IMG/VR virus record: IMGVR_UViG_3300033144_003771
Coordinates: 1 to 44,262 of that record
Origin: a virus
Length of the DNA: 44,262 bases
Direction: 5' to 3' (one strand)
The translations under genes were made by a program, and so were the position numbers. Shown here piece by piece: positions 8,856-40,660 of this stretch. Below the pieces are notes generated by a model. That model worked only from the letters and a program-made list of their open reading frames with translations. It did no database searches and was not told the DNA's origin. Every line of letters starts with the position of its first letter. The first letter of the stretch is position 1.

Positions 8856-8908
8856 CTGAAACCGAAACACAAACAATTAAAGCGTTAATACGAGGATATG
8901 GTGAATAG
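8852..8908 (+). CDS. possible 18-residue ORF coupled to co-chaperonin gene
   Basis: ATG overlaps the co-chaperonin stop (ATGA) and encodes MTETETQTIKALIRGYGE, then TAG. Coupling is the only support. The remaining 77 bp before the scaffold gene hold no clear signal. Confidence 0.25.
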   Translation: MTETETQTIKALIRGYGE

Positions 8909-8985
8909 ACAACGCCATTAATCCAAGCGAGGCTTTTTGTATTTTGTAACCGAGAATAGGCGCAGAGCCTGAAAGGATGGGAGTT

Positions 8986-9846
8986 ATGCCAGAAGAAGAA
9001 ATAATAATAGAAGGAGAAAAAGAAGAAGCCGCCGGCAACAACAAAGAGGTTGGCGAAGAGAACGCCGGAGAAGGAGCTAAAGAAGGAGGCGATGTGGAAG
9101 CCCTTGCGAAGGAGATGGGGTGGAGACCGAAGGAGGATTTTGCTGGTGATGAGACTGATTTTGTAAATGCCAAAACCTATATTCGCAAAGGGCAGGATAT
9201 ACAGGACAGTATGCGGAAATCCCTCAAAAGCCAAAAGCAGCAACTGTCAGACATGACCGACAGTATAGCAGAATTGAAAGCCCATAACGAAAGAGTTTAC
9301 AAAGCCGAGGTTGCTAACCTGAAAAAAGAATTAATATCTCTAAAGACTCAGAAAAAAGTGGCTATCGAGGACGGGGACGTCGAAAAGGTTAATGAAATTG
9401 ATGAACAGATTGATGCTGTAAAAGGCTCAATCAAAGAGCCAGAGCCGGTTAAAAAAACTGCTAAAACGCAAAGCCAGGGAGAATCATCAACACCTGAATT
9501 TGACGTATGGGTTAAACAAAATCCCTGGTACATCACTGATGATGAAATGGGGCAATATGCTGACACCATCGCAACCGAAAACAAAGGCCTGTCGTTCAAG
9601 CGAATCGCTAATATGGTTGATAAAAAAGTTAAAGAAGCTTTCCCCGAGAAATTCTCCGAACAAAAGAATGTGAATGTAAATCGTGTTGAAGGCTCTGCGC
9701 GGCGGGGATCATCTTCTGGAAAACTTACTGAAGCCGATCTAACGAGTAGCCAGAAAAGCATAATGAATCAGTTTGTTCGTCAGGGAATAATGACCAAAAA
9801 CCAATATATAGAGGATATTGCCAAAGTGGCAGGAGGTGCAGCATGA
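8986..9846 (+). CDS. scaffolding protein
   Basis: 286 residues, very charged. The acidic N-terminus (MPEEEIIIEGEKEEA) leads to EALAKEMGWRPKEDFAGDE.DFV.AKTYI, a recurrent motif of podoviral scaffolds. A coiled coil follows (SLKSQKQQLSDMTDSIAEL to about residue 145), then DVWVKQNPWYITDDEMGQYA, and a basic C-terminus (RRGSSSGKLTEADLTSSQK), the part that usually binds the capsid protein. It directs procapsid assembly and is lost on maturation. ATG 8986 is preferred (AAAGG 9 nt upstream); the in-frame ATG 8977 sits directly on that site. It lies between portal and capsid genes, the standard scaffold position. Confidence 0.8.
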   Translation: MPEEEIIIEGEKEEAAGNNKEVGEENAGEGAKEGGDVEALAKEMGWRPKEDFAGDETDFVNAKTYIRKGQDIQDSMRKSLKSQKQQLSDMTDSIAELKAHNERVYKAEVANLKKELISLKTQKKVAIEDGDVEKVNEIDEQIDAVKGSIKEPEPVKKTAKTQSQGESSTPEFDVWVKQNPWYITDDEMGQYADTIATENKGLSFKRIANMVDKKVKEAFPEKFSEQKNVNVNRVEGSARRGSSSGKLTEADLTSSQKSIMNQFVRQGIMTKNQYIEDIAKVAGGAA

Positions 9847-10256
9847 GCGAGAAGAACAAACCAGAGACAAAAGAAGCCGTAGAGAAAAAAAGACCGGAAA
9901 GAGTTCCGCTTGGCACTCGTAATGTGCTTACAGCCCCGAAACGTCCTGGCTATGTTCGCAGGTTTGTGAATGATGAGCCGGGCAGAATCCAGCAGTTTGA
10001 AGCGGCTGGATATTCGGTCGTTAAAGAAGATGTTCAGGTAGGAGATCCCAAGGCTGGGAAAAATCTTAAACCTGGCAGTGGAGTGTCGCTCCCAGTGGGC
10101 GGTGGAACAGATGCAGTTTTGATGGAGATCAAAGAGGAATTTTACAAAGAAGATCAAAAAGCCAAACAAGACAGAATTTTAATGTCGGAAAATGACATGA
10201 AACGCAAGTTAAATACAAAAACCGAGGGTATGTATGGTGGTGTTAAAATTACATAG
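9843..10256 (+). CDS. conserved phage head-region protein, function unknown
   Basis: A 137-residue basic protein, coupled to the scaffold gene by an ATGA overlap. It has a recognisable motif: VPLGTRNVLTAPKRPGYVRR, then FVNDEPGRIQQFEAAGYSVV, a pattern met in many podovirus head operons. A Gly-rich loop follows (GSGVSLPVGGGTDAVLMEI), then a long basic helix KEEFYKEDQKAKQDRI. It may be a capsid-associated or minor head protein; there is no direct evidence for a specific role. Confidence 0.6.
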   Translation: MSEKNKPETKEAVEKKRPERVPLGTRNVLTAPKRPGYVRRFVNDEPGRIQQFEAAGYSVVKEDVQVGDPKAGKNLKPGSGVSLPVGGGTDAVLMEIKEEFYKEDQKAKQDRILMSENDMKRKLNTKTEGMYGGVKIT

Positions 10257-10282
10257 CCTCAGTTTATATATGAGGTGAAATC

Positions 10283-10870
10283 ATGGCAAACGTAGATAGA
10301 ATCTGCGGGTTTAAGCCTGTCGGACATTTAAACGGAAATCCGTGGAACGGCAAGGCAAGGATGTATTATATCCCTGCCACTGACGCCACGGCGGTTTTCA
10401 TCGGCGATGCTGTTAAGTCTGCCGGCAGCGCTGATAGCACTGGTAAGTATCCAACAGTAACACAGGCAGCAGCAGACGAAACAATCAGGGGCGTTGTGGT
10501 TGGTTTTTGCGATCAGCCTTTCGTGGCACTCGATACCACAAACCTTAACAGGGCATACAGGCCTGCAAGTACGGCCATGTACTGTCTCGTTGTGGATGAC
10601 CCTGATGTTATCTTCGAGATTCAGGAAGATAATGCCAGCAACGACATGGACGCGGATATGGTAGGCCTGTCCACCGATATCGCAGTTGGCTCTGGGGATA
10701 CTTCATCCGGTAAATCCGGGATGGAGCTGGATTCCAGCGATACTGCAACGGCGGGAGGCCAGTGTAAAATTCTCGGAGTGTCAAACAAAGAGGATAATGC
10801 GCTTGGAGCTCACTGTAAATGGGATGTTCTTATTATCGAGCACGAGATGAGATCGTCCACTGACGTATAG
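10283..10870 (+). CDS. capsid accessory/decoration-like structural protein
   Basis: A 195-residue protein, mainly beta, without Lys-rich or catalytic motifs. It begins MANVDRICGFKPVGHLNGNP and contains GDAVKSAGSADSTGKYPTVTQ, IRGVVVGFCDQPFV, and ends KWDVLIIEHEMR. Proteins of this type sit immediately before the major capsid gene in many podoviruses and are virion components. A good ribosome binding site (GAGGTG) precedes ATG 10283. The exact role (decoration or head stabiliser) is inferred from position and composition only. Confidence 0.6.
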   Translation: MANVDRICGFKPVGHLNGNPWNGKARMYYIPATDATAVFIGDAVKSAGSADSTGKYPTVTQAAADETIRGVVVGFCDQPFVALDTTNLNRAYRPASTAMYCLVVDDPDVIFEIQEDNASNDMDADMVGLSTDIAVGSGDTSSGKSGMELDSSDTATAGGQCKILGVSNKEDNALGAHCKWDVLIIEHEMRSSTDV

Positions 10871-10888
10871 GAAAGGAGGTAATGTATC

Positions 10889-11809
10889 ATGGGTGTTATA
10901 ACTACTGGTAATTTTGCAAAAGACCTCGTTCCTGGCGTTCGGGCGTGGTACCAGACAAAATACAAAGAATATCCGATTGAGTATCTGGATATTTTCGAGA
11001 AAAACGTTTCGACAAGGGCATTTGAGGAAGAAATTGGAGTAACCGGGTTTGGTCTTGCTCAAATAAAAACTGAAAACGACGGCATATCTTTTACCGATAC
11101 CGAACAGGGATATGTGAACAGATATACTCATGTAACATACGGGCTTGGTTTTATCATCACCCGTGAAATGCATGAGGACGGTATTTCTGTGACCGTAGCC
11201 CTGAGACGCGCAAGCGCTCTGGCTTTTTCAATCCGACAAACAAAAGAGCTGATCGGAGCAAATATTCTCAACCGCGCCTTTAACTCATCTTACACGATGG
11301 GCTCGAACAGCGACGGCAAAGAGCTTTGCGCTACTGATCATCCGAACAAGTCTGGTGGTACTTGGCGCAATGAGCTTGCGACTCCCGCTGATTTGAGCGA
11401 AGCAGCTCTTGAGCAGGCATGTATTGATATCGGAGCGTTCACAACTGACAAGGGTTTAACGATTGCGATTAGGCCGATGAAGCTCGTCATTCCGACTGCA
11501 TTAGAGTTCGATGCATACCGGATACTGAAGTCTATTGGCCGTGTTGATACCGCGAACAACGACATCAATGCTATCCGCGCTTCAAACAAGATTCCGCAGG
11601 GCGTGAAGGTTAATCATTACCTGACCGATGCCGACGCGTGGTTCCTGAAGACTGACTGTCCCGATGGGCTGAAGTATATGGAGCGGAGAGCTGACAATTT
11701 TGGTACCGAGAATGATTTCGATACTGAAAATGCCAAATTTAAGGCAACTTTCCGTGGGAGTTTCGGATGGTCAGATGCCAGAGGTGTCTACGGAAGTCCG
11801 GGCGGTTGA
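10889..11809 (+). CDS. major capsid protein (HK97-fold, Mu gpT-like)
   Basis: A 306-residue protein with features of the Mu-type major head subunit family: an N-terminal NFAKDLVPGVRAWYQTKYKEYP, the mid-section YTHVTYGLGFIITREMHEDG, then LIGANILNRAFNSS and GKELCATDHPNKSGGTWRN, and a C-terminal FKATFRGSFGWSDARGVYGSPGG. These are the recurring landmarks of this capsid family, which forms the icosahedral shell. Its Shine-Dalgarno is the strongest in the window (AAAGGAGGT, 8 nt before ATG 10889), fitting the most highly expressed gene. A clear terminator follows at 11826-11862. Confidence 0.88.
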   Translation: MGVITTGNFAKDLVPGVRAWYQTKYKEYPIEYLDIFEKNVSTRAFEEEIGVTGFGLAQIKTENDGISFTDTEQGYVNRYTHVTYGLGFIITREMHEDGISVTVALRRASALAFSIRQTKELIGANILNRAFNSSYTMGSNSDGKELCATDHPNKSGGTWRNELATPADLSEAALEQACIDIGAFTTDKGLTIAIRPMKLVIPTALEFDAYRILKSIGRVDTANNDINAIRASNKIPQGVKVNHYLTDADAWFLKTDCPDGLKYMERRADNFGTENDFDTENAKFKATFRGSFGWSDARGVYGSPGG

Positions 11810-25816: not shown

Positions 25817-28800
25817 ATGCCAAGACAACTAACCATAGACGATTTTGAAGAAAACGAGCTGCAAGATGTTTATCCTTCTGGTGGCAAACAGCTTTCTCTT
25901 GATGATTTTGGGGAGGGTGAGTTGGTTGATGCGAAGAGTTATGCTCAAGGGAGGGAGCCGGAAGAACGCTCCTTCATGTCTCCGGCCGTTGATTATGGCA
26001 AAGGCTTTGTCTCCGGCATAAAGCATAGACTTCCTGAAATGGTTGGCCAAGCAGGTCAATTTTTAGGAATAGAGTCTGGTAAAAAACTGGCTGACTGGGG
26101 ACGTGAGGGCGAAGAGAGGAAAGAAAGAGGGGCTTTTTATCAGGCTGGCGAAATGACCACTGTTTCTGCTGCTATTCCAATGGCATTGAATGCTTTAGGA
26201 ACAGGAATAATGTTTTTGCCGGTTCCAGGGGCGCGTCCTGTGGGCGGAGCATTAAAGATAGCATCGTATGTTTTAACGCCTGCAATGTTTGGCCTGTCTC
26301 AAGCGCAACAAACAAAAGAAACGGCTGAACAACAGGGAATAGACCCGGGAGCAGCGCCCTATATTACAGGCGGCATTGAAACCACTGGTGAAACTATTGG
26401 AAACATGGCGCTTCTCAGACTGCTTGGCCCGTTAGCGCCTACCATCCCACTTGCAAAAGCAGGTGCAAAACAACTTCTTAAGTCAACAATAGGAAGGTTC
26501 GGGAAACAACTTCTTTTAAAGACGTTGCCTACAGAGGTTCTTACTGAAATCGGCCAACAATATGGCGAGGCTACTGTTGAAAAAGCATACAATATCAGAC
26601 CTGATGCTCAGCCGATAAAAGAGGCTATGAGCGTTATTGCTCCTACCGCCATTATGACTATAGTCAGCGGTACCGCTGGCGGTACATATCAGAATGTTCA
26701 GGCTAATAGGCTTTTAAAAGGTTTAACCGATCCAAGCGGAGAAGAAAGCAAAAGGCGCGATGCGGTTAACGCTGTAGCTGGGGTCATCAGCGCGCAGGAA
26801 GATAATAAAGATAAACCGATAGCTAACCTTTGGTTGCATTACGCTCATGGCCAGATTGACAATAGCTTACCCATAGACATATCCGAACCGGTTGACGGTT
26901 TATCTCCCAAGAAATCCGCAGCCCGTGACACCCTTCTAAGCGAAGACGAACAAGATGTAACTGCCAAAGAACTCTTGACCGGAGAGAAAGAAGAACCTGC
27001 TGCTGCTGATACTTTTGCCGGAGCCGAGTCCTCCCTGGATGCCGAAGAAGCCGCAGCCGCCTATGAAGATGAGATGCTTGAAAAAGAAGCTGCTCCTGCT
27101 CCAAAATGGCTGAACGATCTTACCGATAATGATATTTCAAAGCGCATAAACAACCTTGAAAGCACACAAGCCGCAAGAGGTCTGTCAGCGAAACAAACTC
27201 AAAATCTGGGGATGCTTCAACAGGAGCTTGAAAACAGGGGCCTTCCAGCGCAGGAAGCTAAAGAGATTAAAAAGCCTGTTACAGAAACAACAAAGCCCAA
27301 GCATAAGTCCAAAAAAGGTTGGGATATAACTCCTGCGGATGAGAATGAAATGTGGGGCCAGATGATGAATCATGTTGAGGCCGTCAAAGCTGAAAATACT
27401 GGTGCGATTGACGATCTTAACAACGAGCTTAAAGCCCTGAAATCCAGCCGCAAAAAAGAGGATGTTGCCCGTAAAAAAGAGATTAAGAAAGAAATTGTCG
27501 CCTTAAAAGCACAACACGAAGATCTACAGACACGCTATGAAAACGATATGGTTGAAGCTTCCATGGCATTTGTTGACGAAGCCAGAGACAAGGCAAAAAA
27601 AGCCGGTGTTCCTGAAGACGCTCTTGATGATTTTACAGAAGATTTTTCCATGCAGATATCACAGGAAAGGCCGTATATAGAGAATAATTACAATAGAACC
27701 TTTAAACAGATATTTGACGAGACGATTGCAGATTATTTGCCGGAGGGCGCTAAAGAAAAGGCGGTCAAGCCAGCACCTACCGAGCCCAAGACAGATGTAG
27801 CTCTTGAGCCGGTGGGTGTTGAAAAGAAATCCGTTGAATTTATCGATATGCAAGAAAGGCCAAACAAAACACCTATCCCATTAGTCAACGAATTAGACAC
27901 AAAAAGCACAGTAGTTTACGATCCTGCCAAACATGAAATGACCAATCTGGCTGAATATGAGAAAGCGGTTGCGGGTGAAAAGGTTGAAATTCCGACAAAA
28001 GCAGAAATTGAAAGTGAGCAGCCAGGGAAAGACAGATCCCCCAAAATAAATAGCATCCGAATTGCTAAAACAAAAGATACAAAATCTTATGCTGATATTA
28101 AAAACATGGAAGCCGATAAAACCATAACAGTTTATCGTGCTATTCCGGCAGGCACAAAAGGGAAAATTGAACCTGGGGATTTTGTAGCGGCAGATAGAGA
28201 GGTTGCCAATTTCTATGCGAATGATCTTATAAAACGTGGGATAACAAATGAAACAATAATGCTTTCCAAGGAAGTCCCGGCCTCTGAAATAAGATTACAT
28301 CCCGATCATCAGGCGCAAGGAGTTGAAAACGAGTTTATTTATAATCCAGAGGCTGTAAAGGCTACAACCCCTAAGCCTCCCGAAGCAAAGCCGTCAGAGG
28401 ACACAGGAAAGGAGGTTGATGAGATAGGTTTAAATACCAACGGAGACAAGATTTATGAAGACGAAAACGGCAGATATCTTATGTCTGCTGATGGAAAGTT
28501 TAAGAGCCATGCGCCAAGGCCAATAGGCCCACAAGGGGAGAAATTCAAGCCTGATACTCCCAGGGAGTTATACAACAGAGGCCGTGTCGATTATTTAACA
28601 ACCCAAGAAAAAGCGGAGTTCGATGCTTTGCTTGAAAAAAAGCTTGCGCCTGAAAAAGCTACGGCAGACAAGCTCGCTTCCGAAATGACCGCAGACGAAC
28701 TGCTTGCCGAGTTGGATCGCCAGGTTGAGGAAATCGAGGAGAGCAACCAGGGACCAACCGCAAAACAAAAAGCCAGGGAAACCGCTGATCATCTTAATAA

Positions 28801-31800
28801 TGCCCTTGGAGCTTTTAAGGATATCAACAAAATTCTTGGCGAAAGAGGCTCGTTTTCTACCAAAGAAATTGATAAAAGTCTTTACAAAGAGATCGAACCT
28901 CTGTTAAAATATGCATGGGATGAAGTTGTTGCTTCTGGAAAATCGGGCAAAGAGTTTATCCAGATTGCGCTGTCAAATCTATCTCCAAAAGGCAAGCCGT
29001 ATATTGAGAGGTTTGTCAAAGAGGAAATAGGCAAGGAGGGCAAAGATGTTACCAATAACACTGGAAGGGAAAAACCACAAGAAACAGCGAAAGCAGATGA
29101 TACAGGACGCATTGCAGGAGAAAGCGCCAAAGACGTATCAGGAGTTGAAAAAGAATCTCGCTCTGCCGAAGTTCCTGAAAGAGACAGAGGAACAGATGAT
29201 GGCGGTGTACAAGGAAGAGTGGGCAAAAGCGGTGACAAAACACAGCGAGGTAGAGACAGACAAAAAAGACCCGATAGCGCAGGTGCAAGAAATGGAGATG
29301 TCGCTAAAGAGAATCTGGGACGAGACACTGGAAACATTTCTGGACTTCAAAGATCCGACTATACAATAAAACCAGGTTCACTAAAGCGTGAAGGAAGTTG
29401 GAAAGATGCAGCGAATAATAACCTTGATGCTATTGAATTACTTAAGAAAATAAATAACGAAAAAAGACCTGCTACACCAAAAGAACAAGCAATCCTCGCA
29501 AAATATGTAGGGTGGGGTGCATCCGAATTAGCGAACAAGATGTTCCCTGGATATACACAATTTGGTGAAGTCAAGACAGGTTGGTCAGAAAGCGGATGGG
29601 AAGCACCTGTAAAACGACTTATCAAACTTCTAACCCCTGAAGAAATAAAACCCGCAGCAAAAAGCACACAGTATGCTCACTACACAAACGAACCAATAAT
29701 CAAATCTATTTACAATGCTCTTGGCAGGATGGGGTTTAAAGGTGGAAAAATTCTTGAGCCTGGCATGGGCATAGGAAATTTTATTGGTTTGCTCCCAGCC
29801 AAAATGCGGAAAACGTCAAACTATACCGGAATTGAGATGGACCCGATTTCGGCCAACATAGCAAAGCTATTATATCCGACTCAAAACATTCTGCAAGCAG
29901 ATTTCGTCAATCAAGCATTCCCTAAAAATTTCTTTGATGCTGCCATAGGCAATCCTCCCTTTGGTTCAACTAAAATCCTTGGAGATCCGGAATACAGGAA
30001 GCACAGATTTTCCTTACATAATTTCTTTTTTGCCAAAACAATTGATCGAGTAAAGCCGGGCGGTCTTTTGGTTTTTGTAACCAGTCGATATACAATGGAT
30101 TCAAAAGCTGACAAGGCCAGGCAATACATGGCTGGCAGAGCAGACTTATTAGGAGCGATAAGGCTGCCTCAAACAGCATTCCTTGAAAGTGCAGGGACTG
30201 AGGTTGTCACAGATGTTTTATTCCTTCAAAAGCGAGAAGAAGGGGCAAAGCAAAAAGGCGAAGCATGGGCAGGGCAAGATGAGATTGCAATTGGTGATAA
30301 TACATCCCTGATCAACGAGTATTTTGTTAATCATCCAGGAATGGTACTTGGCGAACATTCTCTTGAAGGCTCTATGTATGGAGCGAAGCAATACACAGTA
30401 AAACCCATCGAGGGCAAAATAGAAGACCTTTTTGCACAAGCCGTAAAAAAGCTACCGGCTAACGTATATCAAAAAGTTTCAACCAAGATTAAAGAAAAAT
30501 ACAACGAGAAGGCTGTTATCGAGAGGGATTTCGACCCGAAAAACAAGAAGGAAGGCGGGATCTATCTTTCTGATAAAGGCGTTGTTATGAAGGTTGACTT
30601 TGGTTCCGGGGTTCCTGTCGGTTCAATCCATAAGAACATCACAACAAAAACAACGGGATTCCTAAAGAGCTATATCAAGTTAAGAGACGCCTTAAAGCTT
30701 TCCCATAAGTCTCAGCTTGAAAATGGTGATTGGGAGAAAACCTTAAAAGTTCTCAATAGAGAATATAACAAATTTGTAAAAAAGCATGGTCATATCCTCG
30801 CATTTACCAGCACAATGCGGACCAAGCATAATGAAGATGGCACAACCGAGAAAGTTGAATATCGTAAGTATAAAAATGAAGCAATTCTTCGCATAGATTG
30901 TGAATCGTCATTGGTCATGGCTTTGGAAAAGATTACGCAAGACGGCGAAGTTATTAAATCAAGGGTTTTACAAGACAGGACAATAAACAAGCCGACTGTG
31001 CCGAAAATCAAGTCTATTCCTGATGCATTAGCTGTTTCATTAGATGCAATAGGCAAGCTTGATATTAATCATGTCGCAAAGACAGTTAATAAATCCAGCG
31101 AAGAGGTTATAGCAGCTCTTGGAGATTTAATTTATGACACGCCTGATGGTTCCGGTTATTTGATGGCGGACGAATATCTATCTGGAAATGTTGTAAAAAA
31201 ACTTGAGGAAGCGAGAATTGCTGCAAAAACAGATCCCGCATTTAAGCGAAATGTCTTGGCTTTAGAGAAAGCACAGCCTGAGCCATTAGAGCCTAAGCAG
31301 ATCACAATAACTCCCGGAGCTACATGGATTCCTCTCGATTATTACAGCCAGTTCGCCACAGACGTTCTTGAACTGCCAAACACGGAAGTTACATACCAGC
31401 CGATTGATAATTCATGGAGAGTATTACCCAGGGCAGATACAAGACCAAGCTGGCAGCGATATGGAAACAAGCAAGGCTATTCACCTCAAGAGCTAAGAGG
31501 GGCCACCAGTGAATGGGGCACGAAGGAGCGTGGAGCTAATGAAATATTGGACTCTGTTTTAAATAATAGGACTATCAGGATTACATATACCATTGAGGAA
31601 GGCGGAAGTAGAAAAACTATCTTTGATGCAGAGGCTACTGCCGCTGCCAATGAAGTTGCTAAAAAGATAAGACAGCGATTCAACTCATGGGCGTGGGAAG
31701 ATGCTGACAGAGCGGGCATATTGCTGAATATTTACAATACAAAAATAAACACTATCAAAGGCAGGGAGTTTGATGGTTCACATTTAACGCTTCCGGGGAT

Positions 31801-34800
31801 GAGCCAATACTTTACCCCATACGATCACCAGAAACGTGTTATTTGGCGAATATTGCAAACAGGCAATACTTATATGGCCCATGCCGTGGGTGCCGGTAAA
31901 ACCTTTATTATGATCTCTGCCGGCATGGAAATGCGACGGTTGGGGATGATCAATAAGCCTCTTTATGTTGTACCTAAGCACATGCTTGGTCAGTTTGCTC
32001 AAGAGTTTCAAGAGCTTTATCCTATGGCGAACATTCTGGTAGCAGATGAAAAAAACTTCTACACAGAAAATAGAAAACGATTTGTAGCTCAAGCAACTTT
32101 GAATGACCCTGATGCTGTTATTTTAACTCATCCAAGCTTTGGTATGCTGGGTGTCAAAGAGGAAACTTTGGCGCCTGTTCGTGATGAATTTCTGGAACAA
32201 ATGCGGTTCTCCCTATCAGAGATGAAAGATGAAGGCGAACCAAAAATGAAGATCAAGCGGATGGAAAAAAGAATTGAACAGGCAGAACAACGCTTTAATT
32301 CTTTACGTTCAGATGGTGATAATGTTGTTTCTTTTGAGGAGCTTGGCACTGATTTTATGTTCGTGGATGAAGCGCATGAGTTCAGAAAGTTGGATTTTTC
32401 TACAAATAGGCAGATGAAAGGAATTGACCCCCAAGGTTCAAGAAGAGCGATTGATCTTTACATAAAGACACTTTGGATGGAAAAACAACACCGTGGCAGA
32501 TCACATGCTTTTGCTTCCGGCACTCCTATCGTTAACACTCTTGGCGAATTATATTCTTTGCAAAGATTTTTCGATCAAGGAGCAATGGAAGAGGATGGCA
32601 TAAACCATTTTGATGCCTGGGCAAATATGTTCGGAGAACCGGCAACCAGCTATGAAATGACAGCATCAGGCAGCTATGAGCCAGTAGAAAGGTTTTCGAG
32701 ATTTGTCAATATCCCTGAATTGATGTCACGCATTAGAATGTTTATGGATGTTTTAACGGATTCTCAATTGGGGACGAGAGTTGAACGCCCAAAAATCAAA
32801 GACGGTGCGGCTGAGATAGTCCTTGCACCAAAGAACGAAGCTCTTAAAAAGTACCAGGACGAAGTGTTGCAACCAAGGATAGAGACCAGCCGAGCATGGA
32901 AACCATCTCTAGGGCAACCAGGGAACCCAGATCCAATCATTAATATCATAACTGATGGTAAATTAGCTTCTATTGATATGCGTTTCGTTGATCGGAAAGC
33001 GATTAATGATCCGGAAAGCAAATTAAATAAATGGATTGATGGAATTATAGAAACATACAAAGCAACAAAAGATTTAACCTATTCAACAGAATATGGCTTA
33101 ACCAAAAAATCGCCAATAAAAGGCGGTGTTCAAATATGTTTTTATAACAATGGGTTTGGGAGCGGTGTAATAGAACGCAGGGGTTTTGATTCTAAGGCAT
33201 TTTTGATGAAACGTCTTAAAACCGCTAATATTCCTACAAAACATATTGGATGGATTGATGATTATAAAACTGCTCCACAAAAACAGACCTTGTTCAAGCT
33301 TGTGCGGGACGGAAAAAAAAGGATTCTACTTGGTTCTGCAAAGAAAATGGGTACCGGTGTTAATGTCCAAAACAGATTAACGCATTTACATTATTTAGAT
33401 GCGCCATGGTATCCGGCAGATGTCGAGCAACCGGATGGCCGAATTGTTAGGCAAGGAAATCAAAACACAGAGGTTGTTTTAAAGCGATATGCCACGAAGG
33501 GGAGTTATGACGCAACTTTATGGCAGATGGTTGCCAGGAAATCAAAGTTTATAGACCAGGCTTTTGTCGGTGATAAAAACGTAAGGTCTATCGAGGATGT
33601 TTCTGAATCCAGCCAGTATGAAATGGCTGCTGCTTTGGCGTCTGGTGACGAAAGGATAATCCAGCTTGTTGGTTTACGTTCTGATATTGAAAGATTACAT
33701 CTTCTTGAAGGCGCTCATCGGACGAATCAGGCAACCTTGTCGTCTGATAAGCGAAAACTTGAGAGGGATATATCTGAAAATCAGGGTGAGATTGAAGATT
33801 TTGAATCTATTGAAGAGTCTCTTCCTGAATATATTGGCCCTAAGATTGATGCAAAGAGCGGCAAAAAAACCTTTACAGAACGAAAAGAATTTGGCGCTGT
33901 ATTAATTAAACAAATTAGAAAGATTTTTGCTGGCAAAAAAAATGACCAGGTTAAACTGGGCTCAATTAGTGGCATAGATATTAATACCGATACAATATTG
34001 GTAAGCGAGCTTTCACACAAGTTGGATATTGAAATATCTAAAGGTGCTTTCAGGCGTGTGATTGACAATACCTATATGTCTATAGACCAATGGAACGAAA
34101 TTGATGCTGTTGGATTAACGAAAAAAATCACAAATGCAATCAACGGGCTTCCTTCGGTTAAAACAAAAATGGAGCAACGGCTTGAAGACGACAAAAAAAG
34201 TCTTACAAGAATCAACAAAAGGCTCGGAGCGCCTTTTGAACATGCAAAAGAATTCGCGGAAAAAGTGGCTGAGGCTGCTGCCCTTGAGAGAGAGTTAGCT
34301 GAGGAAGGAGAATCTACGGAAATCATAAAGGCCGAAGTTAGCAAAAAACAGGAAGCCGATATGGCCGAAGAGTCTTTGGATGTTTCTGCTTTTTATATTT
34401 ATAACCCTCCACAGGACAAATATGTTAAGTTAACCCCAGAATCATCTGTAAAACCATTGCCGGTAACTAAGACAGGTACAACATGGGGTGATACCTTTTT
34501 TATTCATAGACCGTTAGGCGAAACAGAAGGATGGGTTATTTCAGAAAAGAAATCAGGGCTTGCTGCTGCATCTGGAAAAACGCAGGAAGAGGCAATCGGT
34601 CGCCTTAAATATAATCTTACCACTGTTACAGAAGAAAAGTTCAACAAAATCATTGAAGACCATATTGAGAAATATGGAAAACCGCCCGGAACGGAGATTC
34701 TTTCTGAAACTAAAACCCGACTTCTTGAAAACATCAAATCCGAAAAAGGCGAGTCTGCTCTTATCAACGATTTGTCTATCCTTGGTGCCGATACAATCAG

Positions 34801-37800
34801 GCAAGGTTATAAAACCTACCAGGAATTTTCTGCAAGAATGAAAACCACTCTTGATGAGGTATGGGATAAGATAAAGCATTTAATGAGACAGGCTTATGAT
34901 GCTGCTAAGATTGTAATAAGCAACGAGAGAGGTATGATCGGTGACGAGAATGCCATAGGCGCCACCACAGAAATCGACACAACCGGATATCTGCCTTCTG
35001 AAGTTGAAAAGCGGATGGCTCGTGCTAAAGGCGGACCAAAGGCTGATTTTAAGGAAACTCTTAAAGAAAAAATAACCGAAATCAGGCACCAGCGACAGCA
35101 CTTTCCGGATCTGAAAAACATAGAAGATGAAACGCTGCGAGCAAAAGTTAACGACATTCTTCGGCGCCACCAGGAGATCCCTGAAACAGCCAAAAACGAG
35201 GCCATACAGAAGATACACTCTTTTACCGAAAAACTATCCAAGGACGGGTACAAAGTGTATCGTATGCACATTATCCTCGCCGATATGATGCGGGATATTC
35301 GCAACAGCCTGACGTATGATGGCAAACTTCCGTTCGGGTTTAAAACAACTGAAGAGGTTGGAAATGCTTATGGCAAGTTTCAGGAAACAGCAAAGCGACA
35401 TCCTGAAATTGCGGAGGCATTAAAAAAACGATCAGATACTATCAATGATATTAAGCGGCGGCTGGTAAAAGCCAAACTGTTAAAAAAGGAAGTATTAAAA
35501 GATGATGATTATTTCCATCATCAGGTCATTCAGTATTGGGAAAAGAAATATGGAATGGCAACGGGTTCAAGAGACGTAAGGACCCACTGGCGGCCATGGA
35601 TGGCTGCAAGAAAGGGCTCGCCATTAGATTATAACACAGACTATATCGAGGCTGAATATACAGCCATATCGCAACAGTTGGCGCAAATAAAGGTTGTTGA
35701 AACGCTGAAAAGGCTGAAGAAGGAAGCGGATATATATGTAAGTTTAAAAAGGAAAGCCAAAGACAAAAACATCGACAACCTCTGGAAGCTTCTACGAAAA
35801 AAAGGCCAGATTGAAATAAACGAAAAAACAGGGGAAGAAATAGACCCTTTGTCTCCGTGGAAACAGAAAATCGTAATGGCAAATGTAAACCTTGCGAAGA
35901 TGGCTTCAGACGGGGAGCTTGAATATGACAGCGAGTGGCAGGAAATCGTTGATGCCCTGGCAGATTCTTATGATGCATGGAAAGCTAACAAGGATGATAT
36001 CCCAAACTATCCGAGACCCGGTGTTAATGATGCGCGATGGTTCCACTTTCTTTCATACCTGCTCAACACAAAAAAGCCTGGGGCAAACTGGGCTGCCACA
36101 GTATATAAGGCGATCAGAAACCGCAACAAATATATAGAAAAAACCCTTGGAGATAAATTCTTAACATACGACAAGCTTATCCCGAAGGGTTACGTTGATT
36201 GGAAGCCGGACCCGAACAAAGGTTGGTTCTGGGCTAATGTGGTAACCGACAAAATACTTGAGAAAATGCAAAGAGGGGAGATTGACCCCAATGATGTAGA
36301 GGCCCGGCAGTTACTTGCAAAAGGCCGTGATCTTATCTGGATAATACCGGAGGGACTGGCCAGCACAATGGACAATTTCAGTGGCCAAGTTGAACCTGCC
36401 TGGGTTGGAAGGCTTGCTGATATTACAATGAGAAGATGGAAGCAATACATTCTTCTCAATCCTTATTCAGTTATACGATACAATCTGAACAATACTTCAG
36501 GCGATCTGGATGCTTGCCTGGCATACGCTCCCGAAATAGCCACGAAGTATGCTTATAAAGCCTTTAAGGATTTAAGGAAATGGCACAGACGAAAAAAGCT
36601 GGACCCGGCAATTCAAAAAGAAATAGACGAAGCACATGCGATGGGAGCTATTCAATCCGGTTTTTCGATGCAAGAAGTAGATGATGTTAGAGAAGTGTTG
36701 TCGATGGATAAGTCTGTGCGGGACATCATTCTTGACGGAAACCCTAATTGGTTCACAAAGGCTGAATGGTACGGGATAAAAAAAGCCAGTACAAAGTATT
36801 GGGCATTTGTAAGAAGGATAACGGCCATGCGTGAAAACACTCTCCGCCTCGCTGCCTATCGGTTTTTTATGGATAATCAGGATAAGCGATTGTACGGGGC
36901 CTCAAATCCGACCGAGGTTGATGCAATCTCAGATCCCAAAGAAAAATCTGCAAAGCTGGCCAGAGAGTTGCTTGGTGATTATGGAAATATATCTAAAAGC
37001 GGTGAGTATATACGAAAACGGCTAATGCCTTTTTATTCATGGCTCGAAATCAACGCTCCTCGATACGTTTACATGATGAGAAACACTAAGTACGAAAACA
37101 GGGATGTTGATTCGATTAAAAAACGAGCTACTGCCGTTGCGGGCAAAAAGCTTATTCTGGCAAGCGGAAAAATGGCTTTGCGGGCATCTATGTTGATGGG
37201 CGCTGTTATGCTGTGGAACATGACTGTATTCCCGGATGAGGAAGATGAGCTTGGCGAAACCGGCAGACGGCAAATGCATATCATCCTTGGCAGGCGAGAG
37301 GATGGCTCAATTATAACTCTGCGATTCCAGGGTGCTTTGTCTGATGCCCTTTCTTTCTTTGGCCTGGAAGATTGGCCAGATGACATGAAGGATGTGTTGC
37401 GTGGCAAACAAACAGTTTTGGACAAATTAAAAGAGGTTCCCTTGGCTCTGTTAAACAGGGGAGTGCAGGCAATACGTCCAGAGCCCAAAATGCTTGGAGA
37501 AATGATCAGTGGAAAAAGTTTTTATCCTGACATCCTCCGGCCATTGCCTATCAGGGATAGATTAGAACATGCTTTGAGAACATTCAAGCTGGACAAAATA
37601 TATCGGGCAGCTTTAGAGCGGCCAGGCAGGGGCAAAACCCCTGGAGCGCCACAAGCAGTACAGATAGCTGAACATTTTGTTAACGACCTGAAATCTCTTT
37701 TTACATACGAGTCCGACCCAGGCTTGTTAGCTTACTATGACACCCGTCAACTGGTCTTTGAGTGGCTGGCAAAACAGGGTGATGAAAAACGGTTTGGCGG

Positions 37801-38062
37801 CAGGCCCACAAAAAAAGGAAATGCGTTTTATTATTATAAGCAGGCAATGAAGTACGGCGATCTGGACGCTGCTGAGAGATACCTTAAAAAGTATTATGAG
37901 CTGGGAGGAACGCCAAGATCGAAATTGCAGTCAATTAAATTTGCCCATCCGCTTTCCAGTATTTCAAAAATGAAGCGGATTGCATTTCGACAATCATTAA
38001 CACCGGCACAGGACACTAAATTCAAGCGGGCTTTGGATTGGTATAACAAAACTTATAGGTAG
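25817..38062 (+). CDS. giant polyvalent protein (4081 aa): ejection region, ART-like segment, DarB-like adenine methylase/helicase, LPD38-like C-terminus
   Basis: One frame of 4081 residues. Residues 1-300 begin with two LTIDDF-type repeats, then hydrophobic Gly/Ala segments that could insert in membranes. ~500-640 are coiled coil. ~755-860 (TVYRAIP, Y773 R774; PGDFVAADREVANFYA; ENEFIYNPE) resemble an ADP-ribosyltransferase-type fold. ~1180-1460 are an N6-adenine methylase: LEPGMGIGNF (~1312) and NPPF (1379-1382). ~1970-2570 are a helicase: VGAGKT (2024-2029), DEAH (2184-2187), DGRIVRQG (2540-2547). This methylase-helicase pair is the DarB type of P1, which is injected to block restriction. 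The C-terminal ~530 residues have an LPD38-like ending (FYSWLEINAPRYVY, ~3735). Probably ejected with DNA. A weak Shine-Dalgarno precedes ATG 25817. Confidence 0.85.
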   Translation: MPRQLTIDDFEENELQDVYPSGGKQLSLDDFGEGELVDAKSYAQGREPEERSFMSPAVDYGKGFVSGIKHRLPEMVGQAGQFLGIESGKKLADWGREGEERKERGAFYQAGEMTTVSAAIPMALNALGTGIMFLPVPGARPVGGALKIASYVLTPAMFGLSQAQQTKETAEQQGIDPGAAPYITGGIETTGETIGNMALLRLLGPLAPTIPLAKAGAKQLLKSTIGRFGKQLLLKTLPTEVLTEIGQQYGEATVEKAYNIRPDAQPIKEAMSVIAPTAIMTIVSGTAGGTYQNVQANRLLKGLTDPSGEESKRRDAVNAVAGVISAQEDNKDKPIANLWLHYAHGQIDNSLPIDISEPVDGLSPKKSAARDTLLSEDEQDVTAKELLTGEKEEPAAADTFAGAESSLDAEEAAAAYEDEMLEKEAAPAPKWLNDLTDNDISKRINNLESTQAARGLSAKQTQNLGMLQQELENRGLPAQEAKEIKKPVTETTKPKHKSKKGWDITPADENEMWGQMMNHVEAVKAENTGAIDDLNNELKALKSSRKKEDVARKKEIKKEIVALKAQHEDLQTRYENDMVEASMAFVDEARDKAKKAGVPEDALDDFTEDFSMQISQERPYIENNYNRTFKQIFDETIADYLPEGAKEKAVKPAPTEPKTDVALEPVGVEKKSVEFIDMQERPNKTPIPLVNELDTKSTVVYDPAKHEMTNLAEYEKAVAGEKVEIPTKAEIESEQPGKDRSPKINSIRIAKTKDTKSYADIKNMEADKTITVYRAIPAGTKGKIEPGDFVAADREVANFYANDLIKRGITNETIMLSKEVPASEIRLHPDHQAQGVENEFIYNPEAVKATTPKPPEAKPSEDTGKEVDEIGLNTNGDKIYEDENGRYLMSADGKFKSHAPRPIGPQGEKFKPDTPRELYNRGRVDYLTTQEKAEFDALLEKKLAPEKATADKLASEMTADELLAELDRQVEEIEESNQGPTAKQKARETADHLNNALGAFKDINKILGERGSFSTKEIDKSLYKEIEPLLKYAWDEVVASGKSGKEFIQIALSNLSPKGKPYIERFVKEEIGKEGKDVTNNTGREKPQETAKADDTGRIAGESAKDVSGVEKESRSAEVPERDRGTDDGGVQGRVGKSGDKTQRGRDRQKRPDSAGARNGDVAKENLGRDTGNISGLQRSDYTIKPGSLKREGSWKDAANNNLDAIELLKKINNEKRPATPKEQAILAKYVGWGASELANKMFPGYTQFGEVKTGWSESGWEAPVKRLIKLLTPEEIKPAAKSTQYAHYTNEPIIKSIYNALGRMGFKGGKILEPGMGIGNFIGLLPAKMRKTSNYTGIEMDPISANIAKLLYPTQNILQADFVNQAFPKNFFDAAIGNPPFGSTKILGDPEYRKHRFSLHNFFFAKTIDRVKPGGLLVFVTSRYTMDSKADKARQYMAGRADLLGAIRLPQTAFLESAGTEVVTDVLFLQKREEGAKQKGEAWAGQDEIAIGDNTSLINEYFVNHPGMVLGEHSLEGSMYGAKQYTVKPIEGKIEDLFAQAVKKLPANVYQKVSTKIKEKYNEKAVIERDFDPKNKKEGGIYLSDKGVVMKVDFGSGVPVGSIHKNITTKTTGFLKSYIKLRDALKLSHKSQLENGDWEKTLKVLNREYNKFVKKHGHILAFTSTMRTKHNEDGTTEKVEYRKYKNEAILRIDCESSLVMALEKITQDGEVIKSRVLQDRTINKPTVPKIKSIPDALAVSLDAIGKLDINHVAKTVNKSSEEVIAALGDLIYDTPDGSGYLMADEYLSGNVVKKLEEARIAAKTDPAFKRNVLALEKAQPEPLEPKQITITPGATWIPLDYYSQFATDVLELPNTEVTYQPIDNSWRVLPRADTRPSWQRYGNKQGYSPQELRGATSEWGTKERGANEILDSVLNNRTIRITYTIEEGGSRKTIFDAEATAAANEVAKKIRQRFNSWAWEDADRAGILLNIYNTKINTIKGREFDGSHLTLPGMSQYFTPYDHQKRVIWRILQTGNTYMAHAVGAGKTFIMISAGMEMRRLGMINKPLYVVPKHMLGQFAQEFQELYPMANILVADEKNFYTENRKRFVAQATLNDPDAVILTHPSFGMLGVKEETLAPVRDEFLEQMRFSLSEMKDEGEPKMKIKRMEKRIEQAEQRFNSLRSDGDNVVSFEELGTDFMFVDEAHEFRKLDFSTNRQMKGIDPQGSRRAIDLYIKTLWMEKQHRGRSHAFASGTPIVNTLGELYSLQRFFDQGAMEEDGINHFDAWANMFGEPATSYEMTASGSYEPVERFSRFVNIPELMSRIRMFMDVLTDSQLGTRVERPKIKDGAAEIVLAPKNEALKKYQDEVLQPRIETSRAWKPSLGQPGNPDPIINIITDGKLASIDMRFVDRKAINDPESKLNKWIDGIIETYKATKDLTYSTEYGLTKKSPIKGGVQICFYNNGFGSGVIERRGFDSKAFLMKRLKTANIPTKHIGWIDDYKTAPQKQTLFKLVRDGKKRILLGSAKKMGTGVNVQNRLTHLHYLDAPWYPADVEQPDGRIVRQGNQNTEVVLKRYATKGSYDATLWQMVARKSKFIDQAFVGDKNVRSIEDVSESSQYEMAAALASGDERIIQLVGLRSDIERLHLLEGAHRTNQATLSSDKRKLERDISENQGEIEDFESIEESLPEYIGPKIDAKSGKKTFTERKEFGAVLIKQIRKIFAGKKNDQVKLGSISGIDINTDTILVSELSHKLDIEISKGAFRRVIDNTYMSIDQWNEIDAVGLTKKITNAINGLPSVKTKMEQRLEDDKKSLTRINKRLGAPFEHAKEFAEKVAEAAALERELAEEGESTEIIKAEVSKKQEADMAEESLDVSAFYIYNPPQDKYVKLTPESSVKPLPVTKTGTTWGDTFFIHRPLGETEGWVISEKKSGLAAASGKTQEEAIGRLKYNLTTVTEEKFNKIIEDHIEKYGKPPGTEILSETKTRLLENIKSEKGESALINDLSILGADTIRQGYKTYQEFSARMKTTLDEVWDKIKHLMRQAYDAAKIVISNERGMIGDENAIGATTEIDTTGYLPSEVEKRMARAKGGPKADFKETLKEKITEIRHQRQHFPDLKNIEDETLRAKVNDILRRHQEIPETAKNEAIQKIHSFTEKLSKDGYKVYRMHIILADMMRDIRNSLTYDGKLPFGFKTTEEVGNAYGKFQETAKRHPEIAEALKKRSDTINDIKRRLVKAKLLKKEVLKDDDYFHHQVIQYWEKKYGMATGSRDVRTHWRPWMAARKGSPLDYNTDYIEAEYTAISQQLAQIKVVETLKRLKKEADIYVSLKRKAKDKNIDNLWKLLRKKGQIEINEKTGEEIDPLSPWKQKIVMANVNLAKMASDGELEYDSEWQEIVDALADSYDAWKANKDDIPNYPRPGVNDARWFHFLSYLLNTKKPGANWAATVYKAIRNRNKYIEKTLGDKFLTYDKLIPKGYVDWKPDPNKGWFWANVVTDKILEKMQRGEIDPNDVEARQLLAKGRDLIWIIPEGLASTMDNFSGQVEPAWVGRLADITMRRWKQYILLNPYSVIRYNLNNTSGDLDACLAYAPEIATKYAYKAFKDLRKWHRRKKLDPAIQKEIDEAHAMGAIQSGFSMQEVDDVREVLSMDKSVRDIILDGNPNWFTKAEWYGIKKASTKYWAFVRRITAMRENTLRLAAYRFFMDNQDKRLYGASNPTEVDAISDPKEKSAKLARELLGDYGNISKSGEYIRKRLMPFYSWLEINAPRYVYMMRNTKYENRDVDSIKKRATAVAGKKLILASGKMALRASMLMGAVMLWNMTVFPDEEDELGETGRRQMHIILGRREDGSIITLRFQGALSDALSFFGLEDWPDDMKDVLRGKQTVLDKLKEVPLALLNRGVQAIRPEPKMLGEMISGKSFYPDILRPLPIRDRLEHALRTFKLDKIYRAALERPGRGKTPGAPQAVQIAEHFVNDLKSLFTYESDPGLLAYYDTRQLVFEWLAKQGDEKRFGGRPTKKGNAFYYYKQAMKYGDLDAAERYLKKYYELGGTPRSKLQSIKFAHPLSSISKMKRIAFRQSLTPAQDTKFKRALDWYNKTYR
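29046..29369 (+). CDS. 107-aa gene nested in the +1 frame of the giant gene
   Basis: AAGGAGGG at 29033-29040 stands 5 nt before ATG 29046. The product begins MLPITLEGKNHKKQRKQMIQ and continues DALQEKAPKTYQELKKNL, FLKETEEQMMAVYKEEWAKAV, and WDETLETFLDFKDPTIQ, a compact helical protein. The W..TL..FL.FSDP-type ending is recurrent in small proteins encoded next to DarB-like genes. In the same DNA the giant frame reads low-complexity, Gly/Asp/Arg-rich linker (DRGTDDGGVQGRVGKSGDK), as expected for the passive frame of an overlap. It lies at residues ~1077-1184 of the giant protein, just before the methylase. Function unknown. Confidence 0.6.
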   Translation: MLPITLEGKNHKKQRKQMIQDALQEKAPKTYQELKKNLALPKFLKETEEQMMAVYKEEWAKAVTKHSEVETDKKDPIAQVQEMEMSLKRIWDETLETFLDFKDPTIQ

Positions 38063-38136: not shown

Positions 38137-38415
38137 ATGAACGGTTATCCAAAACGTGTAGCAACCAGGCAGGATTGTATCAACCTGCTTGCAGACGATG
38201 AATTTAAGGACTATGTGCTGGCTGATCTGAAAGCAATCTACAACATGAACGACGCAAAGGCAATAAGGGCCACGGCTCTGATTGATCCTGACGATCCCGA
38301 AAGCGGATACAACACAGAGATCATCGATAATCCCATGCCGATGTGGAAACAGAAGGGGTTTGCGAGTAGGCAGGAAGTGGCGGATTTGATTACGAAAAAC
38401 GGAGGGACAATCTAA
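38137..38415 (+). CDS. hypothetical phage protein upstream of the DGR target
   Basis: A 92-residue protein starting MNGYPKRVATRQDCINLLAD, then EFKDYVLADLKAIYNMNDAKAIRATALIDPDDPESGYNTEIIDNP and a C-terminal KQKGFASRQEVADLIT. It is helical at both ends with an acidic centre. AAGGAG lies upstream of ATG 38137. The 74-bp gap before it has an AAATTTG/CAAATTT hairpin (38083-38101) and a TTGACA (38103-38108) without a convincing -10. Related small ORFs are seen next to phage tail-fibre genes; a role as chaperone or attachment subunit for the variable protein is possible but unproven. Confidence 0.6.
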   Translation: MNGYPKRVATRQDCINLLADDEFKDYVLADLKAIYNMNDAKAIRATALIDPDDPESGYNTEIIDNPMPMWKQKGFASRQEVADLITKNGGTI

Positions 38416-39185
38416 TGGCGAATCGAAATTTGCCTGTTTTTCTTGACATAAGTAAAATCAAAAATCTCTATGCACAAGGATTCGGCTCGCCTTTCATCGC
38501 ACGTGTTTTTCAGTGTTCGTCTAATACTATATACAGGTTTCTCAAAAAGCATAAAATTCTTATACGACCCCAAAAAATAGCAGCCGCAAATTTGAGAAAT
38601 AGAGGGGTAAAACCAAAAACTTTCGATAACAAGACAGAAAAAGAAATATCAGAAAAATATCAGAAATACGGGGTTAACGCAAGTTCTTTAAGTAAGGAAT
38701 ATGGTTGCCACAAAGTGGTGGTTTTAAGAGCATTAAAAAGGCAAAGAGTTTTCACGAAACTACGAAAAGAACTTCTTGGTGATAGGTTTAAGAAAGAAAA
38801 CAACCCGAATTATGGTAATCACTTAGCTATTGCAGGTAAAAAGAACTGTCATTGGATAGAAGATAGGAGCAAATTGAAAGCTAAGTTACACGATGCGATA
38901 AGATGCAGTTTTGAATACAAATTGTGGAGGAAGAGAATTTTTGAAAGGGATAACTATAAATGTAAAATTTGTGACACGGGTGGATATTTAGAAGTACACC
39001 ATATAATCCCTCTCCGAAACATAATAATGGAAAACAATATACAAGATTACGACGATGCAGTCCAATGCAAAGATTTATGGAATATAAATAATGGAATAAC
39101 CTTATGCCGCCCATGCCATGATAAGACAAAGGGGCATGAAACAGAATATGAACAGGTTTTTAAGGAGGCAATAAATTATGAGTAA
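38415..39185 (+). CDS. free-standing HNH homing endonuclease
   Basis: 256 residues. Residues ~10-47 and ~73-110 look like helix-turn-helix DNA-binding units (IKNLYAQGFGSPFIARVF..SSNTIYRFLKKH; EKYQKYGVNASSLSKEYG). The C-terminal ~90 residues are the HNH domain: RDNYKCKICDTGGYLEVHHIIPL (C183, C186, H195, H196), NINNGITLCRPCHDKT (N226, C231, C234, H235), in full accord with active HNH nucleases. The gene is inserted between two phage genes with minimal overlap (TAATG at its start, 8 nt at its end), typical of homing endonuclease insertion. It lies directly upstream of the DGR target gene. Codons are A/T-richer than its neighbours. Confidence 0.88.
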   Translation: MANRNLPVFLDISKIKNLYAQGFGSPFIARVFQCSSNTIYRFLKKHKILIRPQKIAAANLRNRGVKPKTFDNKTEKEISEKYQKYGVNASSLSKEYGCHKVVVLRALKRQRVFTKLRKELLGDRFKKENNPNYGNHLAIAGKKNCHWIEDRSKLKAKLHDAIRCSFEYKLWRKRIFERDNYKCKICDTGGYLEVHHIIPLRNIIMENNIQDYDDAVQCKDLWNINNGITLCRPCHDKTKGHETEYEQVFKEAINYE

Positions 39186-40212
39186 AGTAACAAAAGATAT
39201 GTCAGACAATATAAAAGCAGCAGCAATTTTGGCTTCTTTTCCCTTGAATAAACTGGACAGGATTGTTGAGTGGGCATCAGTGACTACTGTAACGATAAAA
39301 GGTTCTAATCTAATTCCGTTAAGAATTGGTGATCATTGGTTCTTTCTTTCATCGGACACTGATGCTTCAACTGCGACCGACATGGACACCGGCACAATCA
39401 GCAACGGCAAAGACTACTATGTATATGCCTGTGATGACTCCGGCTCTCTTGTTTTTAAAATCAGCCTTGCGTCAACATATCCGACCGGTTTCACAGCCGC
39501 AACGAGCCGTAAAATAGGCGGGTTCCATACGCTGTGCACGAATGTCGGCACAATCGCAGGGCACACGCTGACAGGTTATACGGCAAATAGCATATTACCA
39601 CAGTCAGTCTGGGATCTCAAACATAGACCGATTTCCGACCCGGAAGGCATGGTCTGGTCTGACGAGGCTCAAATATGGGTAGACATCTATCTTGCCAGTG
39701 GCACAGGCGGCTCTACTGTCAGCGTTAACGGCGGAACAATATCAGATACCCGTAATTGGATGGATTTTGTTGATGATTTCGGAGCAGTTAAAAAACAGCT
39801 TCTTGATGATCCTGAATTCCAGTTGATTGCAGCAGGCAGCAACGAAGAAACCAACATCACCGGTTCTGCCGACCCCGTAACAACCGGCGGCCATGTTGAT
39901 ACAGCATCACGCAGGATGATCAGCAACATCGGCTGTGAAGATTGCTGTGGAGCGTTGTATCAGTGGCTGAGAGATCAATTCTACCGACTCGATGGAGCTG
40001 ACCTTGCTGCCGCTGAAACATGGGCATGGAAAGATCAAACAGGCGGCAAAGGTGAGCTATATACACAGGGCACTTATGGAGATGTGAAGCTGCTCGCGGG
40101 CGGTGATTGGGGTCATGCGGCGGATTGCGGGTCACGGTGTCGTACTGCGAATTACTGTCGCTGGGATACGGATGCGCATATCGGCGGGCGCGGGCGGAGC
40201 CGAAAATTGTAG
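39178..40212 (+). CDS. DGR target: variable tail/receptor-binding protein
   Basis: A 344-residue protein whose last ~40 residues are the variable repeat (305-341, AGGDWGHAADCGSRC and onward). The N-terminal part has SVTTVTIKGSNLIPLRIGDHWFF and beta-rich DGTISNGKDYYVYACDDSG; a central stretch (SVWDLKHRPISDPEGMVW, IWVDIYLASGTGGSTVS, GGTISDTRNWMDFVDDFG) resembles other DGR-diversified phage proteins, and the C-terminus has the GGxW....C..C layout of a C-type-lectin-like variable site. It probably forms the receptor-binding tip. AAGGAGG is 9 nt before ATG 39178. The VR ends 12 nt before the stop, as in most DGR targets. Confidence 0.88.
   Translation: MSKVTKDMSDNIKAAAILASFPLNKLDRIVEWASVTTVTIKGSNLIPLRIGDHWFFLSSDTDASTATDMDTGTISNGKDYYVYACDDSGSLVFKISLASTYPTGFTAATSRKIGGFHTLCTNVGTIAGHTLTGYTANSILPQSVWDLKHRPISDPEGMVWSDEAQIWVDIYLASGTGGSTVSVNGGTISDTRNWMDFVDDFGAVKKQLLDDPEFQLIAAGSNEETNITGSADPVTTGGHVDTASRRMISNIGCEDCCGALYQWLRDQFYRLDGADLAAAETWAWKDQTGGKGELYTQGTYGDVKLLAGGDWGHAADCGSRCRTANYCRWDTDAHIGGRGRSRKL
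40089..40198 (+). repeat. DGR variable repeat (VR)
   Basis: A 110-bp segment at the 3' end of the target gene. It aligns without gaps to the template repeat at 40247-40356 (offset 158). Seventeen positions differ and each is A in the template: 11 A-to-G changes at 40098, 40105, 40111, 40123, 40129, 40136, 40157, 40165, 40171, 40174, 40186 and also 40192; A-to-C at 40093, 40114, 40145, 40177; A-to-T at 40153. Homology ends in a G/C-rich run, GGCGGGCGCGGGCGGA, the likely initiation-of-mutagenic-homing site. Confidence 0.95.
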
Positions 40213-40214
40213 GA

Positions 40215-40238
40215 CATAACACGGGCTGGTAAGTTATG
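40215..40238 (+). repeat. inverted repeat downstream of VR
   Basis: CATAAC (40215-40220) and GTTATG (40233-40238), loop of 12 nt. A hairpin or cruciform placed shortly after the VR is known to promote homing in other DGRs; here the stem is only 6 bp and A/T-rich, so the function is uncertain. Confidence 0.4.
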
Positions 40239-40246
40239 AAGTGTTT

Positions 40247-40356
40247 GCTGATCGCAGGCGGTAATTGGAGTAATGCGGCGAATTGCAGGTCACAGTGTCG
40301 TAATGCGAATAACTATCGCTGGAATACGAATACGAATATCGGCAGGCGCAGGCGGA
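40247..40356 (+). repeat. DGR template repeat (TR)
   Basis: A 110-bp non-coding copy of the VR with 31 adenines. Read in the VR frame it gives LIAGGNWSNAANCRSQC, then RNANNYRWNTNTNIG, with repeated AAT/AAC codons, the hallmark of templates built so adenine mutagenesis gives many amino acids. It lies 34 bp after the target gene stop and ~120 bp before the reverse transcriptase start, the usual DGR order. Confidence 0.95.
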
Positions 40357-40477
40357 TACAGGAATATTTATAAAACTCCTGGCTGAACTTATTGGCCTTC
40401 CTTAACGGGAAAATACAAGACGGAGAACGGGCAGAGTTAGTAGGGCAACCGAAAGTTCTGCCCGTACACACAAAAAA
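40247..40477 (+). ncRNA. TR-containing DGR RNA with 3' stem-loop
   Basis: The TR and the spacer before the reverse transcriptase start are transcribed as the template RNA in known DGRs. Here the spacer has a perfect 9-bp stem, ACGGGCAGA (40427-40435) with TCTGCCCGT (40457-40465), loop of 21 nt, 12 nt before the RT ATG. Spacer structure of this kind is needed for priming and for accessory-protein binding in BPP-1. Ends are approximate. Confidence 0.6.
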
Positions 40478-40660
40478 ATGAGAAGACACGGCAATTTATT
40501 TAAGAAAATAGTTACACCCGAAAATATTTATTTGGCGTATCGCAAGGCCAGAAAAGGTAAACGCTGGCAAAGAAAGGTGCAGGCGTTTGAGAAATACGGC
40601 CATGAAATACCTTTTATGACAACGGTGAAGAAAATAGACAGGTATTACACTTTTTCATAA
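40478..40660 (+). pseudogene. truncated DGR reverse transcriptase (N-terminal fragment)
   Basis: The 60-residue frame begins MRRHGNLFKKIVTPENIYLA and continues YRKARKGKRWQRKVQAFEK. This matches the N-terminus of DGR reverse transcriptases (pattern KRH.NL...I...EN...AYRK...GKR), for example Brt of phage BPP-1. Full-length enzymes have ~300-400 residues with a YxDD catalytic motif; none of that is present. After about residue 40 the frame turns into unrelated sequence and stops at 40658-40660, and 21 bp later a lysis-type gene begins. No other frame nearby contains RT motifs. This looks like a deletion that removed the catalytic part. Confidence 0.85.

Follow-up and report, generated by a model that had tools for sequence, protein, structure and literature searches.

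A phage diversity-generating retroelement of the Mtd class that has lost its RT and retains its template RNA

Described systems and the VR/TR pair of the window

The diversity-generating retroelement (DGR) of Bordetella phage BPP-1 is arranged mtd-avd-TR-brt. In that system the spacer serves both to bring in RT-Avd and to prime cDNA; cDNA is stopped by a motif lying 5' of TR (PMC12875486). Archaeal virus ANMV-1 (KP703175; PMC4372165) and Caudoviricetes sp. vir525 carry a Mtd-like target, a TR and an RT directly followed by a homologue of a small protein, here called ACC (ACC profile against ANMV-1, E 7e-34). In Treponema denticola, strains without a DGR core keep target genes with VR-like ends, and repeated gain and loss has been proposed (PMC4891356). 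Here we describe a locus on IMG/VR record IMGVR_UViG_3300033144_003771, a metagenome contig analyzed over positions 1–44,262 (the window, 44,262 bp). All coordinates without an L-number are those of the window; L-numbers denote the loci or contigs of relatives compared with it, and the material consists of metagenome assemblies. The window derives from a bacterial virus and its DGR remnant belongs to a temperate phage. In size and content (terminase, portal, head, internal virion, tail and integrase genes) the record is near BPP-1; it lacks terminal repeats and is perhaps only part of a genome.

The likeness to BPP-1 extends to the comparable genomic location of the Mtd target, a VR at the 3' end of that gene, a TR downstream, A-specific VR/TR differences and a structured spacer after TR. 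Unlike BPP-1, the window has no RT, which also separates it from ANMV-1 and vir525, where RT is intact. Moreover, BPP-1 has Avd between mtd and TR, whereas in the group to which the window belongs no Avd stands there, and ACC comes after RT instead. The window differs from T. denticola as well: there, a bacterium lost both RT and TR, whereas this phage keeps TR and spacer RNA and its RT has left a defined scar.

The elements of the locus, from the MxGYPK gene to the ACC remnant, all lie on the + strand. The target at 39178–40212 encodes a 344-aa mtd homologue, a receptor-binding tail protein (PF21916 mtd_2nd, E 3.5e-25; phrog_11262 tail protein, E 2.7e-69). It matches Mtd crystal structures at E 7e-19 (PDB 1yu4, E 7.4e-19), in agreement with the original prediction of a tail-type, Mtd-like protein, and the structural alignment runs through the variable end to residue 339. 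Domain homology and a VR in the C-terminal C-type-lectin part both place the protein in the Mtd family. VR (40089–40198) aligns without gaps over 110 bp with the non-coding TR (40247–40356). A count by template base confirmed the predicted adenine-only pattern: all 17 mismatches fall on the 31 adenines of the template (12 A>G, 4 A>C, 1 A>T; P for 17 random mismatches all on A, 6.9e-12), and 0 of 79 non-A template sites differ. Two positional statements needed adjustment. The 158 bp given for the downstream copy is a start-to-start offset, with 48 bp separating VR from TR; VR does sit at the 3' end of the gene, not as its last 110 bp, since it stops 14 bp before the gene end (stop codon 40210–40212). 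The degree and type of change are those of intact relatives. Of template adenines, 55% are changed in the window versus a mean of 59% in 64 pooled intact loci, and the window spectrum does not differ from theirs (604 G, 272 T, 236 C; p = 0.20). At the 3' boundary, VR has a G+C-rich end, VR/TR identity stops where expected and a weak 6-bp stem comes next (z -0.2); a search just 3' of VR found no GC-rich hairpin of the BPP-1 type.

Directly 5' of mtd lies an HNH endonuclease gene (38415–39185; PF13391, E 6e-6; phrog_8446, E 1.5e-20), preceded by a small MxGYPK gene (38137–38415). By-eye comparison of sequences placed homologues of the MxGYPK gene at the far side of the DGR cassette in many relatives, where it follows the cassette. 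Its position upstream of mtd in the window, with the HNH gene between, suggests a rearrangement of the module. Further upstream, a 4081-codon ORF (25817–38062) has similarity to DarB-like antirestriction/methyltransferase proteins (phrog_10089).

The deletion scar and the ACC gene

No RT domain was found in the whole 44,262-bp record, and a full DGR RT used as query matched it over codons 1–39 only. The sole ORF between TR and a small downstream gene, at 40478–40660, encodes 60 aa and is an in-frame fusion of two remnants. Residues 1–40 match DGR RTs, Brt of BPP-1 weakly, and residues 34–60 match the end of ACC, which in relatives is encoded after RT in another frame. On the DNA, the first ~39 RT codons occupy 40478–40594 (82% identity to L078 RT residues 1–39; phrog_1423, E 1.1e-9) and the last ~27 ACC codons occupy 40577–40657 (81% identity to L078 ACC residues 74–100). 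The closest RT matches came from L056, L077 and L078; in these loci, an intact RT of ~336 aa separates the two pieces, at a distance of ~1.1 kb. Thus, the window has lost RT codons ~40–336 and ACC codons 1–~77, about 1.1 kb that includes all RT catalytic sequence. The break lies in GAGAAATAC near 40588–40596, and the junction itself reads TTTGAGAAATAC; relatives carry a GAGAAA-like sequence at both sides, as in a deletion at short homology. Searches by protein and by exact DNA pattern found no other carrier of this scar. Judged by RT, the window holds a DGR remnant of the Mtd class and no active DGR. The original prediction of mutagenic homing stands for the VR/TR pair on a Mtd-like protein, a record of past homing; the working DGR that it implied does not, since RT is deleted, and the pair is no evidence of working hypermutation in this genome.

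Two functions considered for the remnant were rejected. Selection on the 60-aa fusion ORF is not matched in L023 and L028, where the scars are out of frame or meet an early stop, and the open frame in the window is probably due to chance. Retention of RT codons 1–40 as an extension of the RNA is not reflected in same-codon use, which is 0.398 over codons 11–40 and 0.380 over codons 41–336.

ACC (~100 aa; phrog_19665, no assigned function) follows RT in nearly all intact loci (for example, L078 1271–1573, L130 1271–1573, L160 4529–4825 and about 68 other loci). A near-full ACC is kept in 68 of 71 RT-bearing loci and in 0 RT-less loci, which indicates that RT and ACC are lost together. The window itself has no Avd, and its ACC is reduced to the remnant described above. 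This distribution makes ACC a candidate accessory factor for DGRs that lack Avd. AlphaFold predicted a small beta-rich fold (pLDDT 87) with no significant match in the PDB (best E 0.16); the predicted topology looks OB-like, which we take as a lead only. In the RT-bearing phage L004, ~2.6 kb (8451–11035) is inserted within the ACC gene.

Spacer RNA and the helix that brackets TR

The region from the 3' end of TR through the structured spacer (Sp) RNA is intact in the window (40345–40474). It was recognized with 107 bits (E 7e-25) by R1, a covariance model built from relatives with the window left out. In an alignment of the spacer RNA from 38 intact relatives, 93.5% of cells were paired and 18 of 25 pairs showed changes on both sides, far above shuffles and slid controls. 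Intact relatives have a TR-to-RT spacer of about 100–190 bp, with a single outlier of 342. In addition, a ~12-bp long-range helix encloses TR between its strands, the 5' strand at 40224–40236 being able to pair with a 3' strand within Sp at 40386–40397. Over 60 loci, cognate strands paired with a mean of -20.7 kcal/mol versus -12.5 kcal/mol for non-cognate strands, and 0 of 20000 permutations were as good. Spacer RNA and helix are both retained without RT in the window, L023 and L028 (the L028 helix was read by eye).

From the comparison of loci, two apparent requirements of intact DGRs in this group emerge, a covarying template/spacer RNA with a TR-bracketing helix and, replacing Avd, a putative accessory protein. 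By analogy with BPP-1, the helix would fit the role of a cDNA stop signal. Model R1 gave no match to BPP-1, and Rfam gave none in the window, the structured spacer RNA included. We claim novelty for these RNA features with caution and relative to the literature searched.

RT loss across relatives and its explanation

RT loss is common among related phages. Scoring of gene content placed RT next to mtd in 71 contigs and found it absent in 27. Viral contigs fetched by Mtd protein or its alignment, and hence free of RT bias, numbered 50 with RT and 22 without; four GTDB genomes had related Mtd genes, and RT adjoins mtd in all four. On a Mtd tree built without the variable end, from short proteins and with some weak branches, the RT trait shows 22 changes, of which well-supported branches force at least 12, and clusters no more than shuffled labels. 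Such counts alone do not separate loss from gain; the scars, where present, do. Whole RT-less records contained no second RT copy, those of the window, L023 and L050 giving just the first 35–40 codons, and no RT-less locus retained more than ~40. Breakpoints vary: RT codon ~39 is joined to ACC ~80 in the window, RT ~40 to ACC ~72 in L023, RT ~8 to ACC ~76 in L028, spacer to ACC 34–37 in L019 and L064, mid-TR to ACC ~30 in L121, and sequence 5' of TR to ACC 61–64 in L051 and L111. Read from these sequences, related phages lost RT many times, independently and by different deletions. In L050 (6700–7300), apparent recombination between VR and TR has left one copy, and mtd continues directly into the spacer and then RT codons 1–36.

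Near-allelic pairs display loss at close range. RT-less L121 lacks 1356 bp relative to RT-bearing L083, with 99.4% identity between the two around the locus; 16 positions differ between their VRs, each of them a template adenine. RT-bearing L066 and RT-less L074 come from one sample and share the same VR and 99.96% identity over 7.7 kb; in L074, a gene for a 187-aa HNH endonuclease replaces TR-RT-ACC. HNH genes (phrog_374/3377/99) occupy the cassette slot, from mtd to a small conserved MxGFPK gene, in six RT-less phages (L074 7717–8280, L044 7091–7723, L060 7464–8213, L068 7380–7958, L148 2159–2800, and L032). This amounts to 6 of 28 RT-less loci versus 2 of 71 RT-bearing loci, where the gene follows RT (p = 0.006; 0.016 minus one sibling). 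Endonuclease homing with co-conversion is a plausible route of cassette loss. The HNH gene of the window lies on the opposite side of mtd, need not have taken part in loss and is perhaps unrelated to the RT deletion.

Collectively, these data make it probable that the window holds a recently silenced, Mtd-type DGR remnant of a temperate phage with a frozen receptor-binding protein. RT would once have introduced errors at adenines while copying TR RNA; replacement of VR in mtd by the resulting cDNA would have altered the tip of the receptor-binding protein. Later, a ~1.1-kb deletion at short homology would have fused RT at codon ~39 with ACC at codon ~80. With RT and ACC lost, the DGR would have been silenced in cis, leaving the last diversified Mtd as it was. 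Homing thus appears to have stopped with the present Mtd fixed, and the tail protein is probably frozen. Set against silencing is the state of the cis part: TR, spacer RNA and helix are intact and non-A sites are unchanged, as if still in use. The same A-only signature, with a near absence of other differences, persists in RT-less L019, L064 and L216, where the spacer RNA is cut, so the signature outlives the machine for a while. A later stage of decay after loss is seen in L027, with about 20 non-A VR/TR differences. From these two observations, the 0/79 count of the window marks recent loss and no more. A VR/TR pair alone is no proof of a working DGR.

That intact cis part would also be expected of a non-autonomous DGR, with VR, TR and spacer RNA of the window mutated in trans by an RT and ACC that a second phage or prophage supplies within that cell. 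In published work, the BPP-1 system functions when RT operon and target are carried on different replicons, full RNA without RT recurs in L023 and L028, and RT-bearing and RT-less relatives share samples, judged from contig names (L029/L064, L003/L111, L066/L074). We nevertheless consider this unlikely. A-only differences last in L019, L064 and L216, which with a cut spacer RNA are expected to be dead even in trans, so the signature does not show use of RT in trans; the TR of L028 has an indel despite an intact spacer, L027 has decayed, and a helper RT in the host of the window is hypothetical.

A further alternative is that the deletion arose in assembly or belongs to a minority of a phage population whose RT is normal: the window is a metagenome contig, its junction falls within a short repeated sequence, and the searches by protein and by exact DNA pattern found its scar in no other contig. 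Such an origin is improbable, given that many contigs from other samples carry different deletions of the same cassette, the contig continues cleanly through the scar into the next genes, and the junction is away from the TR/VR repeats, from which mis-assembly at such a locus usually arises. Least probable of all is an RT on a part of the genome missing from the record. A possible fragment would allow it; the 44 kb nonetheless hold a gene complement like that of BPP-1, and the RT scar occupies the expected site, directly after TR and spacer as RT does in RT-bearing relatives. A silenced remnant is accordingly the reading that we retain.

DGR surveys mostly start from RT, and RT-less phages are therefore missed. 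New findings, relative to the literature searched, are a phage as the setting, loss that is frequent and parallel, a complete template RNA without its enzyme, and the ACC family. If the reading in trans were true, RT-less, RNA-only DGRs would represent a parasitic or shared mode, undescribed for phage DGRs in that literature. Counted from the target gene, about 3 in 10 Mtd phages are without RT, mostly at tree tips. Frequent loss at this position suggests that hypermutation is often switched off and that such lineages are short-lived. The near-allelic pairs L083/L121 and L066/L074 open the costs and benefits of hypermutation to direct testing.
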